A model generated the notes under the pieces. That model made no database searches. It had not been told where the DNA came from and worked only from the letters and a program-made list of their open reading frames with translations. From contig JAADGJ010000012.1 in NCBI GenBank assembly GCA_013152435.1, forward strand, positions 62,001 through 126,000: a stretch of DNA of 64,000 bases, written 5' to 3'. A program made the translations under genes and the position numbers. This DNA comes from Chloroflexota bacterium. GTDB lineage: Bacteria; Chloroflexota; Anaerolineae; DUEN01. Positions 40,169 through 56,420 of this stretch are shown here, piece by piece (position 1 is the stretch's first letter; each line of letters starts with the position of its first letter).

Positions 40169-42622
40169 CTAGTCGTTCTGCAACAACAGGGGCAAGGAGA
40201 GGACATGCCGTATGGAGCGCGTCTTGCTGCGGAACTTCAAGATCTTCTTGTCGTTAGGCGCAAAGTCATCCCGGGCACCGGACTCGAATCCGCCACTGGG
40301 GCGGACCTCTACGGTGATCGTGTAATCGGTGTCCTCCTTCAGGTTCAGGATGATCGCGTCCGAGACCGCCCCTTGAACCGGCACGTTCGCAAAGCGACGA
40401 TGGCGTGTATCAACCATCTCCCAGCAATCCGTACCCTGACATTCCACCCACTCCACCCGCACCTGGACATCGAAGCTTGCCACCCTTCGGCTGAAGTTCT
40501 GCGCCCTATAGAACAGCACGTGACCCGCCGGCAGTTCCTCATACGCGGGGGAGATCTTCTCCCAGCTCGTTCGCTGAGCCGGATAGCTCTTGAGCTGGCC
40601 TGCCTCGTCGCCGCCCCTCGCGATCTTCGCCGCTACGATCCCAAAGTCCCGGTGGGGACACTTGGTGAGTTCCGGAGAGCCATCGCTTCGGGTGGGGCAG
40701 CCCGGAGAACGACTCTGCCGGATCAGATACTTGGCCATGGGGATGAAGCTATCCTGGATCAGATCTCGGATCGCGGTGCCGGAAGGGTGGAAGGTGTTGC
40801 TCCCGTCCCCATTGGCAGCCTGATAGGGGCCCCCATAGTAATTGTTGTAATCGAGGGATCCGTTACAGACCCCTATAGGGTCGCCGAATTGACCGCACTC
40901 TGAATGATCCGCGAAGGGCAACTCGACCATGATGGTCTGAACGGCGCGAAGGGTCCCCTCGTCCGGCTGGCGAACGGTAGCATTGTGACGAACGTCATAG
41001 TACCACATGCGGGTAGGAGGATGGAGGATGCCCACATCATCCATTCTGCCATCGCCGTTGAAATCCCCGGCGACAGGGAGATCCCTACTCCACCCCCAAG
41101 GGCCACTCACGTGGTCTGTCGTGCCATCATGGTCGACATCGTAGAACCATATCCGCTTCGATGGGCGGAAGACGGCCACGTCGTCCACCCTGCCATCGCG
41201 ATCGAAGTCCCCGGCGATGGGAAGATCCCCTCTCCATCCCCACGTCCCTACGCTGTAGTCGGTATCGCCGTCGTGGTCGTAATCGTAGAACCACTTGCGC
41301 TCCGAGGGCCGGAAGACAGCCACGTCGTCCACCTCGCCATCGCGATCGAAGTCCCCGGCGATGGGAAGATCCCCGTCCCATCCCCAGGTCCCCCGAGTCT
41401 CATCGGTGTCGCCATCATGGTCGTAATCGTAGAACCACTTACGCTCCGACGGACGGAAGACGGCCACATCGTCCACCTCGCCATCGCGATCGAAGTCTCC
41501 GGCGATGGGAAGATCCCCCGACCACCCCCAGGGCCCTCGAGACTCATCGGTGTCGCCATCATGGTCGTAATCATAGAACCACTTGCGCTCCGACGGGCGG
41601 AAGACGGCCACGTCGTCCACCTCGCCATCGCGATCGAAGTCCCCGGCGATGGGAAGATCCCCGCTGACGCCCCAGGGGCCGCCGGAAGCATCCGTCTCTC
41701 CGTCCGAGCGGGTGGATTCACGCGAGAGCCAGGCTGAGAACTGGCCGTTCCCGCCGCCGACCCCTTCACGGGCCAGATCGTACCTGGCTCGATCGGCGGG
41801 GTCAGACCAGCCCGCACGCCAGATGCGCGCGGCCTCCTCGATCATAAAGCTTCCCGCGATATCGCCGCCTCCCCACTGATTCCAGATCTGCTGTCCCGGC
41901 GCGTGGAGGATCACCGCCATGGAGATGCCGTGGTTTTCCACGAATTCCCGCAAGGCGTTGGCCTCCGAGGTGGAGAAGGGAGCGAAACCCCGGTAGTTCC
42001 CGGAGCAATAGACGTGGGCGCCTGCGTCGTTGAACCCGCGGGAGAAGTTGCGAGCCACGTTCACCCCGTACGAACACAGGCGGGTATCCCCATTTCCCCG
42101 CCAACCGGCGCTCAGAGGGGATGTGGAGTAATGCCTCGGATCACCCCCGCGAACATCATCGATAGCCCGCCCGGCCGGGTTGCTCATGGGGATGATCCAC
42201 ACATCCACCTCGCGCAGAAGCTCCGGGACGCCCGTTTTGGCGTCATGGATATGATCGACCAGGTATTGGGCAAGCATCAGACAGCTCTCAGAGGTCAGCC
42301 ACTCCCGAGGGTGCATGCCGCACTCGAAGAGGATGGCGTTCTTCCGGTGGTTGTCCTCGACGGAATCCGGCGTGTTCGCGGAGATGCGAATGGCGTAGAT
42401 CGGGTAGGATACGGGGCTATTGGGGCTGCTTCGGTAGTCATAGGAGTATCCGATGATAAACAGCCGAGCGTGAGGGTCGGCATCCAGCCTCCGCAGCAGC
42501 GTCCTCGCCTCGCTGACGTCATGGTAATCCATCACAGGGGATTGTGCCAGACTTGGGCCCAAGGCCGAGGACAGCAGCAGCATCGCCGCCAGAATGCCCG
42601 AGAGAATCCATTTGCCCTTCAT
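40169..42622 (-). CDS. Secreted M14-family zinc carboxypeptidase interrupted by FG-GAP-like repeats
   Basis: The 817-residue product has a signal peptide (about residues 1-27) and an M14 peptidase domain: zinc ligands H103 and E106 in 'CGMHPREWLTSE', H240 in 'VILHAPGQQIW', and the catalytic-type Glu E567 in 'QTIMVELPF'. Between 'GNGQFSAWLSRES' (about 300) and E567 lie five tandem 48-residue repeats (about 315-554) with the calcium-binding-like 'GDFDRDGEVDDVAVFRPS'. The C-terminus has a beta-rich domain and the tail 'LSLPLLLQND'. It probably digests peptides outside the cell, feeding the Opp systems. The ATG at 42622 has a GGAGG site. Confidence 0.85.
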   Translation of the reverse strand: MKGKWILSGILAAMLLLSSALGPSLAQSPVMDYHDVSEARTLLRRLDADPHARLFIIGYSYDYRSSPNSPVSYPIYAIRISANTPDSVEDNHRKNAILFECGMHPREWLTSESCLMLAQYLVDHIHDAKTGVPELLREVDVWIIPMSNPAGRAIDDVRGGDPRHYSTSPLSAGWRGNGDTRLCSYGVNVARNFSRGFNDAGAHVYCSGNYRGFAPFSTSEANALREFVENHGISMAVILHAPGQQIWNQWGGGDIAGSFMIEEAARIWRAGWSDPADRARYDLAREGVGGGNGQFSAWLSRESTRSDGETDASGGPWGVSGDLPIAGDFDRDGEVDDVAVFRPSERKWFYDYDHDGDTDESRGPWGWSGDLPIAGDFDRDGEVDDVAVFRPSERKWFYDYDHDGDTDETRGTWGWDGDLPIAGDFDRDGEVDDVAVFRPSERKWFYDYDHDGDTDYSVGTWGWRGDLPIAGDFDRDGRVDDVAVFRPSKRIWFYDVDHDGTTDHVSGPWGWSRDLPVAGDFNGDGRMDDVGILHPPTRMWYYDVRHNATVRQPDEGTLRAVQTIMVELPFADHSECGQFGDPIGVCNGSLDYNNYYGGPYQAANGDGSNTFHPSGTAIRDLIQDSFIPMAKYLIRQSRSPGCPTRSDGSPELTKCPHRDFGIVAAKIARGGDEAGQLKSYPAQRTSWEKISPAYEELPAGHVLFYRAQNFSRRVASFDVQVRVEWVECQGTDCWEMVDTRHRRFANVPVQGAVSDAIILNLKEDTDYTITVEVRPSGGFESGARDDFAPNDKKILKFRSKTRSIRHVLSLPLLLQND
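40963..41680 (-). repeat. Five tandem 144-bp coding repeats
   Basis: The units encode 48-residue FG-GAP/VCBS-like blocks ('DLPIAGDFDRDGEVDDVAVF' core, then 'ERKWFYDYDHDGDTD'). Units 1 to 3 are nearly identical in DNA, which suggests recent expansion; units 4 and 5 have diverged ('KRIWFYDVDHDGTTD', 'TRMWYYDVRHNATV'). Confidence 0.85.
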
Positions 42623-43239: not shown

Positions 43240-44418
43240 ATGCCCCTGAAACTGGAAGCCATCGTCCAGGCCATCCACGAGATGGTCCTGGCGTTCAACG
43301 GCGACGAGCGCCGCTCGCGGCTGGAGACGGCCCTGGAGCGGCTGCGCACGACGGACCCGGCACAGGTGCGCGCCCGCCTGGACGATCGCCAGGCACGACC
43401 CGGCTGGCTGGTCGCCTACCCGGAGCACACCTTCACCAAGACGTACCCCCTCCCCCCGTGCCCGACCGATTTCACCGTCATCGCCGCCGACGGCTCCTCC
43501 CACGGCCCAGACCGGCATAGCCCCGTCCGCTACTTCATCATCAACACGGGCCACGCCGTGCTCTCCTACGGCAGCCAGCCGAGCGCGGAGATGGACGCCA
43601 CGTCCCGCCTGTACTATCGGGACGAGGACGTCTTCATCGAGCCGGAGCACCACACGTTTCCCGTGGAGGGGGCCATCCTGGCGGTCAAAATGGCCGTGGA
43701 CGAGATGACGGCGCTGGTGGACGCCACGACAGCCATCACCCAGCCCGAGGCGGTGGCGCTGCGGGACGGCACGCTTATCCTGTGGGGGCTGGACAGCCCC
43801 GGCATCACCAGAGAGGTGCGCGAGCGATTCCTGGCCCCATACCGGGAGGCCCTGGAGCAGTTGCGGGATCTGCAAGTCCCCCTGGCCGCCTACATCAGCT
43901 ATCCCAATGCGGACGACGTGATCAACGCGCTGCGCGTCGGCATGTGCCCGGACGAGGTCGTCATCTGCAACCGCTGCGAGACGCGGCGCTCCCAGGGGCG
44001 CGCCCGCTGCGCCGATCTGGCCATGCTGGTCGATCGGTACCTCTTCGCCCGACACCTGGCGGACGGCGAGCGCAGCGACCTCTTCCTGAGCCGCCACCCG
44101 GTGCTCAAGTATTACGACGAGAAGCAAAAAGTGTACTTCTTCTACCTCAACGTCGGGGAGGAGATCGCCCGGGTGGAGGTGCCCGCGTGGGTGGCCAAGA
44201 CGCCGGCGCTGCTGGACCGCGTTCACGCGGTGATCTACGACCAGTGCCAGCGGGGGCGCGGCTATCCCCCCGCGCTGGTGGAGGCCCACGAACAGGCCGT
44301 CATCACCATGGGAGAACGGGAGCTCGTGGAGGAGATGGTCGCCCGAGAGCTGGCCGACCGTGCCGTCGTATACACCCGCTCGGAGAAGGACCGAAGCAAA
44401 CGAATGCGAGGGATCTGA
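43240..44418 (+). CDS. nurA: NurA-domain 5'-3' nuclease-like protein
   Basis: The 392-residue product has the NurA/RNase H-like fold: the first metal aspartate in 'FTVIAADGSSHGPDRH', a second acidic region around 'GTLILWGLDSPG', and C-terminal 'YFFYLNVGEEIARVEVPAWVAK'. In archaea NurA works with the HerA hexameric translocase in DNA end resection. The next gene, overlapping by one base, encodes a HAS-barrel-like protein, which supports the link although no HerA ATPase is seen here. The stop and next start share the sequence TGATG. Confidence 0.82.
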   Translation: MPLKLEAIVQAIHEMVLAFNGDERRSRLETALERLRTTDPAQVRARLDDRQARPGWLVAYPEHTFTKTYPLPPCPTDFTVIAADGSSHGPDRHSPVRYFIINTGHAVLSYGSQPSAEMDATSRLYYRDEDVFIEPEHHTFPVEGAILAVKMAVDEMTALVDATTAITQPEAVALRDGTLILWGLDSPGITREVRERFLAPYREALEQLRDLQVPLAAYISYPNADDVINALRVGMCPDEVVICNRCETRRSQGRARCADLAMLVDRYLFARHLADGERSDLFLSRHPVLKYYDEKQKVYFFYLNVGEEIARVEVPAWVAKTPALLDRVHAVIYDQCQRGRGYPPALVEAHEQAVITMGERELVEEMVARELADRAVVYTRSEKDRSKRMRGI

Positions 44419-45005
44419 TGGAACGCATTGGCGAGATCATCGAGACGAACAGCCGGGAATTCGTGGCGGAGAGCTTCACGTTACACCAGCCCCCCGCGCT
44501 GGGCAGCCTGGTGCGCGTCAACACGGACGACCGCTCCATCTACGCCATCGTCAGCTTCGGCGCCACCACCGGCCTCGATCCAGGCCGGCGTGCCGTGCGC
44601 CGCTCCACCGACGCGGTGTTCGACGAGGCCGTCTACCGAGAACATCCGCAACTGGAGCGGACGCTGCACACCGAGTTCCGGGCGCTTCTAGTCGGCTATC
44701 GCGACGGCGAGGGGGCGATACGCCAGGTGCTGCCGCCCCAGCCGCCGCCGTTGCATTACTCGGTATGGGCCTGTGAGCCGGACGAGGTGCGGGCCTTCAC
44801 GGAGAGGAGGCCGTACTTCCGTCTGCTGCTGAACGCCAGCGGGGAATTGCCGGCCGAGCAGCTGCTGGCCGCCCACATCCGCGCCGCCTATACGGCTCGC
44901 GGCGACGATCTGGGCTGGCTGGAGGCGGCCGCCCAGGAGGTCGCCATCCTCCTGCGGGAGGATTACGATCGCCTGATGAGCGTGCTGCAGGCCATCGAGC
45001 CATAG
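44418..45005 (+). CDS. HAS-barrel-like protein, stand-alone (HerA N-terminal-type)
   Basis: The 195-residue product begins 'MERIGEIIETNSREFVAESF', followed by a beta-rich stretch 'PPALGSLVRVNTDDRSIYAIVSFGATTG'. This resembles the HAS barrel at the N-terminus of HerA helicases. The C-terminal half is helical ('LLAAHIRAAYTARGDDLGWLEAAAQEVAILLREDYDRL'). There is no Walker A motif, so this is not HerA itself. It probably forms a complex with the overlapping NurA or with a HerA encoded elsewhere. The assignment rests on my reading of the N-terminus and on the neighbour. Confidence 0.65.
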   Translation: MERIGEIIETNSREFVAESFTLHQPPALGSLVRVNTDDRSIYAIVSFGATTGLDPGRRAVRRSTDAVFDEAVYREHPQLERTLHTEFRALLVGYRDGEGAIRQVLPPQPPPLHYSVWACEPDEVRAFTERRPYFRLLLNASGELPAEQLLAAHIRAAYTARGDDLGWLEAAAQEVAILLREDYDRLMSVLQAIEP

Positions 45006-45136: not shown

Positions 45137-45952
45137 TTATTTCTTCCCCGGCACCGGCGTCAGCGTCGCTGAGCCCTTCGGCGTAGGGGATGGCACAGGC
45201 GTATCGGTCGCCGTGGGTGCAGAGGACGCCGAGGGCGTCGACGGGGACACGGGGCTTTCCACGCCGGGGGGCACCAACACGGCATCGATGAGGTGCATGA
45301 CGCCGTTGGTGGCCTGAAGATCGGCGCTGACGATCAGGGCGCCGTTGATCCGGGTCACCTTCCCATCGTCGATGGTGATGGTGATCGGCTTGCCCAGGGC
45401 GGTCTTCAACGTGACCGTCTGTACGGAGTCGATGGCCGCGAGCTCGGCCGCCGTCACCCGGCCGGGCACGATGTGGTAGAGCAGGATATTCTTCAACCTG
45501 GGGAGATCCTCCATCAGGTCGCCCACCGTCCCCCTGGGCAGCTTATCGAAGGCATCGTCCACCGGCGCGAAGATCGTGAAAGGCCCCTCGCTCTTCAGTG
45601 GATCCTGCAGCCCCGAAGCCCTCAACAGCAACACGAACGTGGTGAGCTGTTCGTTACGGAAAGCGGTGTTGAAGACGTCCACGAGCTCGGGTGTAGGGGT
45701 AGGGGTCGGGACCAACGTCGGAGTCGCCGTCGGCACCGGCGTAGGCGTGGGAGGCGTGGTCGGCTGCGGCGTTGGCGTAGGTATGGGAGTATCCGTGGGC
45801 CTGGGCGTCGGCGTTGGCGGCAGTGGCGTCGGCGATGGGGGTATGGGGGTCGGCGTCGGCTGCGGCGTTGGGGTCGGCCGACTGCAGGCGCCCACGATCC
45901 CCACGGCGATTAGAACGGCTACGAAAGCGAAAACGACAAAGCGTTTCATCAT
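45137..45952 (-). CDS. Fasciclin-domain lipoprotein with Thr-Pro spacer
   Basis: The 271-residue product has a lipoprotein signal ending 'VGIVGACS', a Thr-Pro-rich spacer (about 25-88) and a FAS1 domain with H1 '[16 protein letters not shown]', '[18 protein letters not shown]' and H2-type '[13 protein letters not shown]'. A second Ser/Thr/Pro stretch ends the protein. FAS1 domains mediate adhesion at the cell surface. Two ATG codons stand side by side; spacing to GAGGAGG allows either 45952 or 45949. Confidence 0.88.
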
Positions 45953-56146: not shown

Positions 56147-56161
56147 TTCGCCATCCACGCA

Positions 56162-56420
56162 CAGCGGCGCCAGCTCCCACGCGGGCGCCATCGCATGGGC
56201 GGCCGGGCGTGGGAGCCCGGCCCGCTCACAAGCGACGAGGCCTTCCCCCACCACAGCAGCGCCAGCTCCCATGCTGGCGCCACCAAGGCGGCCGGGCATG
56301 GGAGCCCGGCCCGCTCACAAGCGACGAGGCCTTCCCCTTTGCCACAGCAGCGCCAGCTCCCACGCGGGCGCCACCGAGGGCGGCCGGGCGTGGAAGCCCG
56401 GCCCGCTCACAAGCGATGAG
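56162..56420. repeat. Three tandem repeats of about 91 bp
   Basis: Units start at about 56162, 56254 and 56345. Each has CAGCTCCCACGCGGGCGCCA, a hairpin GGCCGGGCGTGGGAGCCCGG and CGCTCACAAGCGACGAGG. They fill the space between two convergent genes (56080-56435), where I see no coding function. They are not related to the dispersed repeat. Confidence 0.75.

Follow-up and report, generated by a model that had tools for sequence, protein, structure and literature searches.

The 195-residue protein encoded directly after nurA in the stretch of Chloroflexota DNA analysed here (the window, 64,000 nucleotides on contig C12 of the source genome) probably belongs to the NurA-HerA system as its third, conserved component, which would lie between the HAS crown of HerA and NurA and tune their coupling. 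At the level of gene content and gene order, comparative genomics demonstrates its association with NurA-HerA.

A predicted HAS-fold protein encoded after nurA

The features discussed here are listed in Table 1. The 392 amino acid NurA matched PF09376 over profile positions 2-254 of 254 (E 3.7e-26, 92.6 bits, cut-off 21) and was the only NurA match in the source genome. Motifs of the DGS type, which have a catalytic role, are present at 82 (AADGS) and 175 (RDGTL). The nurA stop codon (44416-44418) and the ATG of the following gene (44418-44420) have the A of TGATG in common; this overlap, the coordinates and the gene lengths are as given in the preliminary description of this DNA. Judged from the sequence, the second gene is translationally coupled to nurA through this overlap. 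Three pairwise comparisons among the window and two related loci (L009 and L020) gave dN/dS values of 0.07-0.14 for nurA and 0.07-0.12 for the second gene, which being like those of nurA indicate that the second gene is real and under purifying selection.

Table 1. Features of the nurA region, with positions in the window
Feature	Position	Strand	Remarks
nurA	43240..44418	+	392 aa, NurA-family nuclease (RNase H-like), PF09376
AGGGA, possible ribosome-binding site of the HAS gene	44409..44413	+	Within the end of nurA; read from the sequence
Stand-alone HAS-barrel protein gene	44418..45005	+	195 aa; family alignments, fold, purifying selection
Predicted HAS barrel, residues 1 to ~118	44418..44771	+	AF2 model; HerA HAS barrels are the best matches
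Predicted C-terminal helical domain, residues 119-195, with conserved QLLAAHIR	44772..45002	+	AF2 model of the domain alone; conservation

The AlphaFold (AF2) model of the 195-residue protein (m746962bdad0c), built from eight related sequences, has a mean pLDDT of 86.9. It places barrel strands at residues 3-10, 14-19, 31-35, 39-51, 58-60, 84-96 and 115-118, with a low-confidence loop at about residues 52-67 and then short helices at 70-75 and 79-82 lying between them. The top PDB match in Foldseek was Thermococcus kodakarensis HerA (E 1.1e-6), and HerA was also the best PDB match by VIA-align (Z 13.5, 107 residues, 3.0 A rmsd), F1-ATPase barrels scoring lower (Z up to 10.1). The HerA-Sir2, HerA-DUF4297 and TdpAB complexes were among the Foldseek matches. 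These results bear out the HAS-barrel-like N-terminus noted in the preliminary description, and similarity to PF09378 is also present. In the window protein the Pfam match is weak (E 0.027, 15 bits, cut-off 25.2, residues 4-45); it is clearer among its relatives, 12 of 21 family members matching PF09378 at E <=1 (best E 3.6e-4) and two of 21 matching PF02874 at the same limit. The window protein is a HAS-fold protein which scores below the gathering cut-off, and so is no formal member of PF09378. Neither a Walker A pattern nor a DUF87 domain was found in it by pattern and Pfam scans, in agreement with the earlier report that Walker motifs were missing.

The C-terminal domain modelled by itself reached a pLDDT of 91.2. 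Foldseek returned no match to it at E <=0.001 (best 4.1) and VIA-align at most Z 5.7 among 29 chains, values that do not in themselves make it a new fold. A PDB sequence search with the family profile gave no match at E <=10. Apart from the sub-threshold HAS matches, no model in Pfam, NCBIfam or PADLOC covered the HAS proteins that were scanned.

It had been suggested that the pair stands without a HerA ATPase and represents either a split HerA or a separate adaptor. Locally the first point holds, since the source genome has five DUF87 matches and all are off contig C12. Genome-wide it does not: the sole strong match (E 3.1e-25; the other four are weaker) is a 601 amino acid HerA on contig C119, in which GQSGTGKS is the Walker A motif, MITIEEAH resembles a Walker B motif, and the HAS barrel scored 25.3 bits with its frame neighbours (cut-off 25.2) and 20.8 when scanned alone. 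NurA and a complete HerA are thus both encoded in this genome by genes that are not neighbours, and the 195-residue HAS protein is an extra one. A split HerA, meaning that in the source lineage the HAS barrel had been separated from the ATPase, has only the common fold in its favour. We rejected it as hardly credible, because the only HerA of the genome, the C119 protein, combines HAS barrel, DUF87 core and Walker motifs, and because every HerA inspected by eye in the relatives begins with a HAS-like stretch.

Two subfamilies in 301 Chloroflexota genomes

A single-sequence search detected the protein in 45 of 60 related genomes, and a scan of contigs matched close relatives only (eight loci, the named ones being Caldilineae, Anaerolineae, Anaerolineales and Thermomicrobiales). 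A census was made in 301 Chloroflexota genomes, the sample being identical for every query. The type I HAS profile matched 116 genomes and type I HerA, for which the query was the HerA of the source genome at E <=1e-25, matched 118; 114 genomes had both. NurA (PF09376) was found in 187, and the 72 NurA genomes lacking a type I HAS protein at first resembled a dissociation. Divergent HerA proteins were detected in 24 of 28 such genomes tested (E <=0.001), and the type I profile gave no full-length match in 30 genomes even at E <=1. In one genome (G145) a weak type I match (E 0.54) fell between nurA and a divergent herA, and in eight of 20 NurA regions examined (L087-L094) an ORF of 196-217 amino acids lay between these two genes. 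These ORFs constitute a second subfamily, with which 58 of the 301 genomes were then found. Next to nurA in the remaining 12 regions (L095-L106), no ORF of this size was recognised; the gene is located elsewhere in 11 of these genomes, the exception being G148. An initial reading of the census, by which the HAS protein would follow HerA and be independent of NurA, was rejected as an artefact of the missed subfamily II.

The two subfamilies matched each other with an hhalign probability of 96.2 (E 2.3e-9, 173 columns), or 97.3 with larger sets. Type II HerA (E <=1e-40) was present in 57 genomes, 56 of which have HAS-II. Summed over both subfamilies, a HAS protein occurs in 173 of the 301 genomes, HerA in 174, both in 169 and neither in 123; since the genomes, though they span more than 40 family labels, are related, these counts are not independent events, no significance is given, and the co-occurrence in part reflects shared descent. 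Four genomes have a HAS protein without detected HerA (G072, G187, G208, G342) and five have HerA without HAS (G022, G082, G156, G191, G229). Most of these nine are incomplete or fragmented assemblies. Completeness is not low in G022 (97%) and G082 (100%), and these two have no NurA match either. NurA accompanies the HAS protein in 170 of 173 HAS genomes; seen from the other side, 170 of 187 NurA genomes have a HAS protein and 17 do not, and all three proteins were found together in 166 of the 301.

HAS-I was never found with HerA-II only, nor HAS-II with HerA-I only, among the 301 genomes. This strict pairing by HerA type, the nearly one-to-one presence with HerA and the HerA-like predicted fold would suit an ATPase-less pseudo-subunit that acts mainly on HerA, either entering its HAS crown or capping it, with control over ring opening, DNA loading or subunit number. 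The Sulfolobus HerA is described, in the part of the source available, as switching between heptamer and hexamer, the latter stabilised by NurA or ATP (PMC5715905), which speaks for this reading. It leaves unexplained, however, why nurA and the HAS gene persist as a pair in many type I genomes, and we think it quite improbable.

Among the 301 genomes, G101 (contigs C142 and C275) alone combines the two HAS subfamilies with the two types of HerA. It permits a test of partner specificity within one cell.

Gene order and haloarchaeal plasmids

The order nurA, HAS, herA was observed at close spacing in at least 45 gene sets. In many relatives herA is the next gene after HAS, as in L010, L011, L031, L032 and L034-L036. 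The closest relatives of the window, L009 and L018-L020, have nurA-HAS with no herA nearby (in L018-L020 over the stretch covered), and in L009 as in the window the HAS start overlaps the nurA stop. Given that many other relatives show nurA-HAS-herA, the window represents a three-gene set from which herA has been relocated, a move confined to its own family and some others.

Distances were taken between the edges of profile matches, not gene ends. Among the 116 type I sets, at least 39 have nurA upstream and herA directly downstream of HAS, with a nurA-HAS spacing of up to 2.5 kb; a hand-counted subset of 30 falls within 600 bases. Five more have herA within 2.5 kb, and in at least 33, including the window, nurA is beside HAS with herA elsewhere, far or undetected. 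Another 20 have herA beside HAS, with nurA elsewhere in six and not listed in 14. Nine have herA within 2.5 kb and no nurA listed, and ten have neither partner near among the positions listed; 26 type I rows in all are without a NurA position. The 58 type II sets comprise at least 15 with nurA-HAS-herA (spacing within 600 and 400 bases), 27 with HAS-herA and nurA elsewhere, seven with HAS-herA and nurA not listed or not found, four with both partners near at wider spacing, three with nurA alone near and two with neither. Altogether, at least 106 of 116 type I and at least 56 of 58 type II sets have one or both of nurA and herA no more than 2.5 kb from the HAS match. In G152 and G282 the HerA match is in two pieces and the farther one was scored, so adjacency is understated there; second HAS pieces in G101 and G196 were left out of this count.

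Where one partner has moved away, the HAS gene is thus kept beside the other, which is what a component acting with NurA and with HerA would lead one to expect. Read from position alone, gene order supports contact with NurA and HerA alike and does not choose among the readings considered here. One of these makes NurA the main target: a co-translational chaperone or inhibitor would occupy the HerA-docking face of NurA and keep the nuclease stable and silent until displaced by HerA. The overlapping start codons in the window and L009, the 33 or more type I sets in which nurA and HAS are adjacent with herA elsewhere, far or undetected, and the near-constant presence of NurA in HAS genomes would all fit. 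Against this, HAS remains with herA while nurA is elsewhere in 27 of 58 type II sets, and the HAS subfamily strictly follows the HerA type. We hold this explanation to be unlikely, though worth keeping in mind.

With subfamily II as query, four plasmid records were retrieved, all haloarchaeal (Natrinema, Halobaculum, halophilic archaeon DL31 and Halorussus). The homologs, annotated as hypothetical proteins, show 22-30% identity (E 8e-9 to 2e-17) and lie between nurA and herA in all four. The first three records (L191, L192, L193) have the order metallophosphoesterase, SMC ATPase, NurA, hypothetical protein, ATP-binding protein/DUF87; from the annotation, we read the first two as Mre11 and Rad50. 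In the fourth (L194) the homolog precedes an ATP-binding protein and nurA lies across the record start of the circular plasmid. In each of the four records the protein encoded downstream is a match to HerA type II (37-41% identity), and the Natrinema NurA as query returned the same four records. The haloarchaeal proteins matched subfamily II with a profile probability of 99.95 (E 2.5e-38). Their direct match to subfamily I is weak (16.3, E 0.0016), so the link to the window protein runs through subfamily II. No plasmid was found with the window protein as query and no phage with the haloarchaeal protein, and no viral contig carrying the family was confirmed.

The preliminary description confined its suggestion to "this lineage", which is too narrow, since the gene accompanies nurA and herA across the Chloroflexota and on haloarchaeal plasmids. 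That the gene has been retained alongside HerA and NurA in bacteria and archaea, and with either type of HerA, also makes it very improbable that this is a bystander, an unrelated gene that came into the operon by chance, and no point in the data speaks for that. A role for the protein would give a name to the "hypothetical protein" entries on the four plasmid records.

Two further observations concern these records. A 2026 paper states, in the portion available, that nurA and herA are not apparent in halophilic archaea (PMC12977600); in contrast, L191-L193 carry NurA and HerA-type genes. At the end of the HerA gene in L194 (2710-2871), PLSDB predicts a "DES-1 beta-lactamase" from 162 bases at 100% identity, which is probably a spurious short match.

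Possible role and other features of the window

In other organisms, HerA is a hexameric DNA pump and NurA a dimeric nuclease on its HAS crown. Solved complexes have, according to the available parts of two reports, a HerA hexamer whose HAS crown carries a NurA dimer, in a 6:2 HerA:NurA ratio (PMC9960219, PMC12977600). In T. kodakarensis, NurA is described there as touching the HAS domain at its alpha1 helices and at the loops that come before them (PMC12977600), and in Deinococcus radiodurans the contact is through the acidic HerA residues Asp78, Glu80 and Asp81 (PMC9960219). The loop at about residues 52-67 and the helices at 70-75 and 79-82 of the model may correspond to this NurA-contact edge of HerA; this is our own reading of the model rather than a superposition. 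These helix and loop contacts, and the loop and helices of the predicted barrel, are what lead us to place the protein at the NurA/HerA junction. In its predicted fold, the stand-alone HAS protein keeps the barrel through which NurA docks on HerA, without the ATPase and with a helical domain of its own. We propose that the barrel would use the same helix-and-loop edge by which HerA HAS barrels touch NurA, and the C-terminal domain would contact the other partner. The six-fold HerA ring would in this manner be adapted to the two-fold NurA, and the hand-over of DNA to the nuclease tuned. Physical contact, the placement at the junction and any effect on activity are what we infer from the genomic association and the models. 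The separate adaptor that had been suggested earlier is in line with all of the genomic findings; its binding to NurA and HerA is a prediction. A natural HAS-NurA or HAS-HerA fusion would have indicated contact; there were none among 172 stop-to-stop ORFs (134 distinct ends) at the loci examined.

Several points tell against a third component, among them the nine genomes in which only one of HAS and HerA was detected and the 17 NurA genomes lacking HAS. The profile of HAS-I against the barrels of its own HerA type is weak, with an hhalign probability of 1.1 in the first sets and 19.1 (E 0.0012) in larger ones; NurA as negative control gave 0.1-0.4, and since the true HAS barrels of HerA-I and HerA-II, the positive control, reach only 2.8 with each other, this comparison cannot decide. 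The HAS-barrel assignment is one suggested by the predicted fold and the single-sequence Pfam matches. In D. radiodurans, T. kodakarensis and Sulfolobus, NurA and HerA function as a two-component system with no protein of this kind, as far as the available text of these reports goes. Likewise, in Thermus the nurA stop is described as overlapping a herA-type start with no third gene (PMC5448004, in the part accessible).

The system is like the NurA-HerA of Archaea and Deinococcus-Thermus in having NurA and a hexameric HerA ATPase with HAS barrel in neighbouring genes and, on the haloarchaeal plasmids, also in the genes annotated like mre11-rad50. Unlike the studied 6:2 complexes it has a third gene, for a stand-alone HAS protein, which is absent from their descriptions in the portions available. 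The fold is common to the HAS barrel (PF09378) of HerA and the F1-ATPase barrel, but in the stand-alone protein a helical C-terminal domain takes the place of the ATPase. In the anti-phage complexes HerA-Sir2, HerA-DUF4297 and TdpAB, too, a nuclease or effector is combined with a motor of the HerA type; the nuclease of the present system is NurA. PADLOC models matched only the HerA proteins, NurA and three HAS proteins giving no family at E <=0.01. The open literature searched yielded no description of a HAS protein that stands alone beside NurA-HerA; an earlier mention is possible, the likeliest place being the treatment of the FtsK-HerA superfamily by Iyer et al. (2004). On balance we favour the view that this is a three-component form of NurA-HerA.

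Since the third gene goes with those of NurA and HerA in more than half of the 301 Chloroflexota genomes and in haloarchaeal operons, it is a candidate for a missing part in end resection. Going further, the HAS protein might be an ancient regulatory subunit of bacteria and archaea that chooses the action of NurA-HerA at a DNA end: without it both strands would be degraded, and with it one strand would be spared or the nuclease restrained, leaving the 3' overhang which purified two-component complexes fail to make. This we put forward as a rather doubtful speculation.

Two HAS proteins of Thermomicrobiales (L015 7998-8696 and L016 8001-8699) have a C-terminal linker that closes with GDVPF in the first and FDDVPF in the second, the only such ends among 134 distinct HAS ends. 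We take these to resemble the acidic tip of the bacterial single-strand-binding protein SSB. The HerA of L094 (genome G038) has an acidic EDDPF tip, alone among 113 distinct HerA ends. In Sulfolobus, SSB has been reported to regulate HerA-NurA, according to the available part of that paper (PMC12977600).

Elsewhere in the window, a minus-strand ORF at 45137-45952 is convergent to the nurA-HAS pair; by eye it resembles a lipoprotein that has a fasciclin-like domain and a long region rich in Pro/Thr. A second minus-strand ORF (40169-42622) appears by eye to be zinc carboxypeptidase-like with inserted repeats of the type GDLPIAGDFDRDGEVDDVAVFRPSE; within it, a 144-base tandem array occupies 41123-41662 (3.8 copies, 88% matches). 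Another, a 92-base tandem array, is located at 56155-56420 (2.9 copies, 88% matches).
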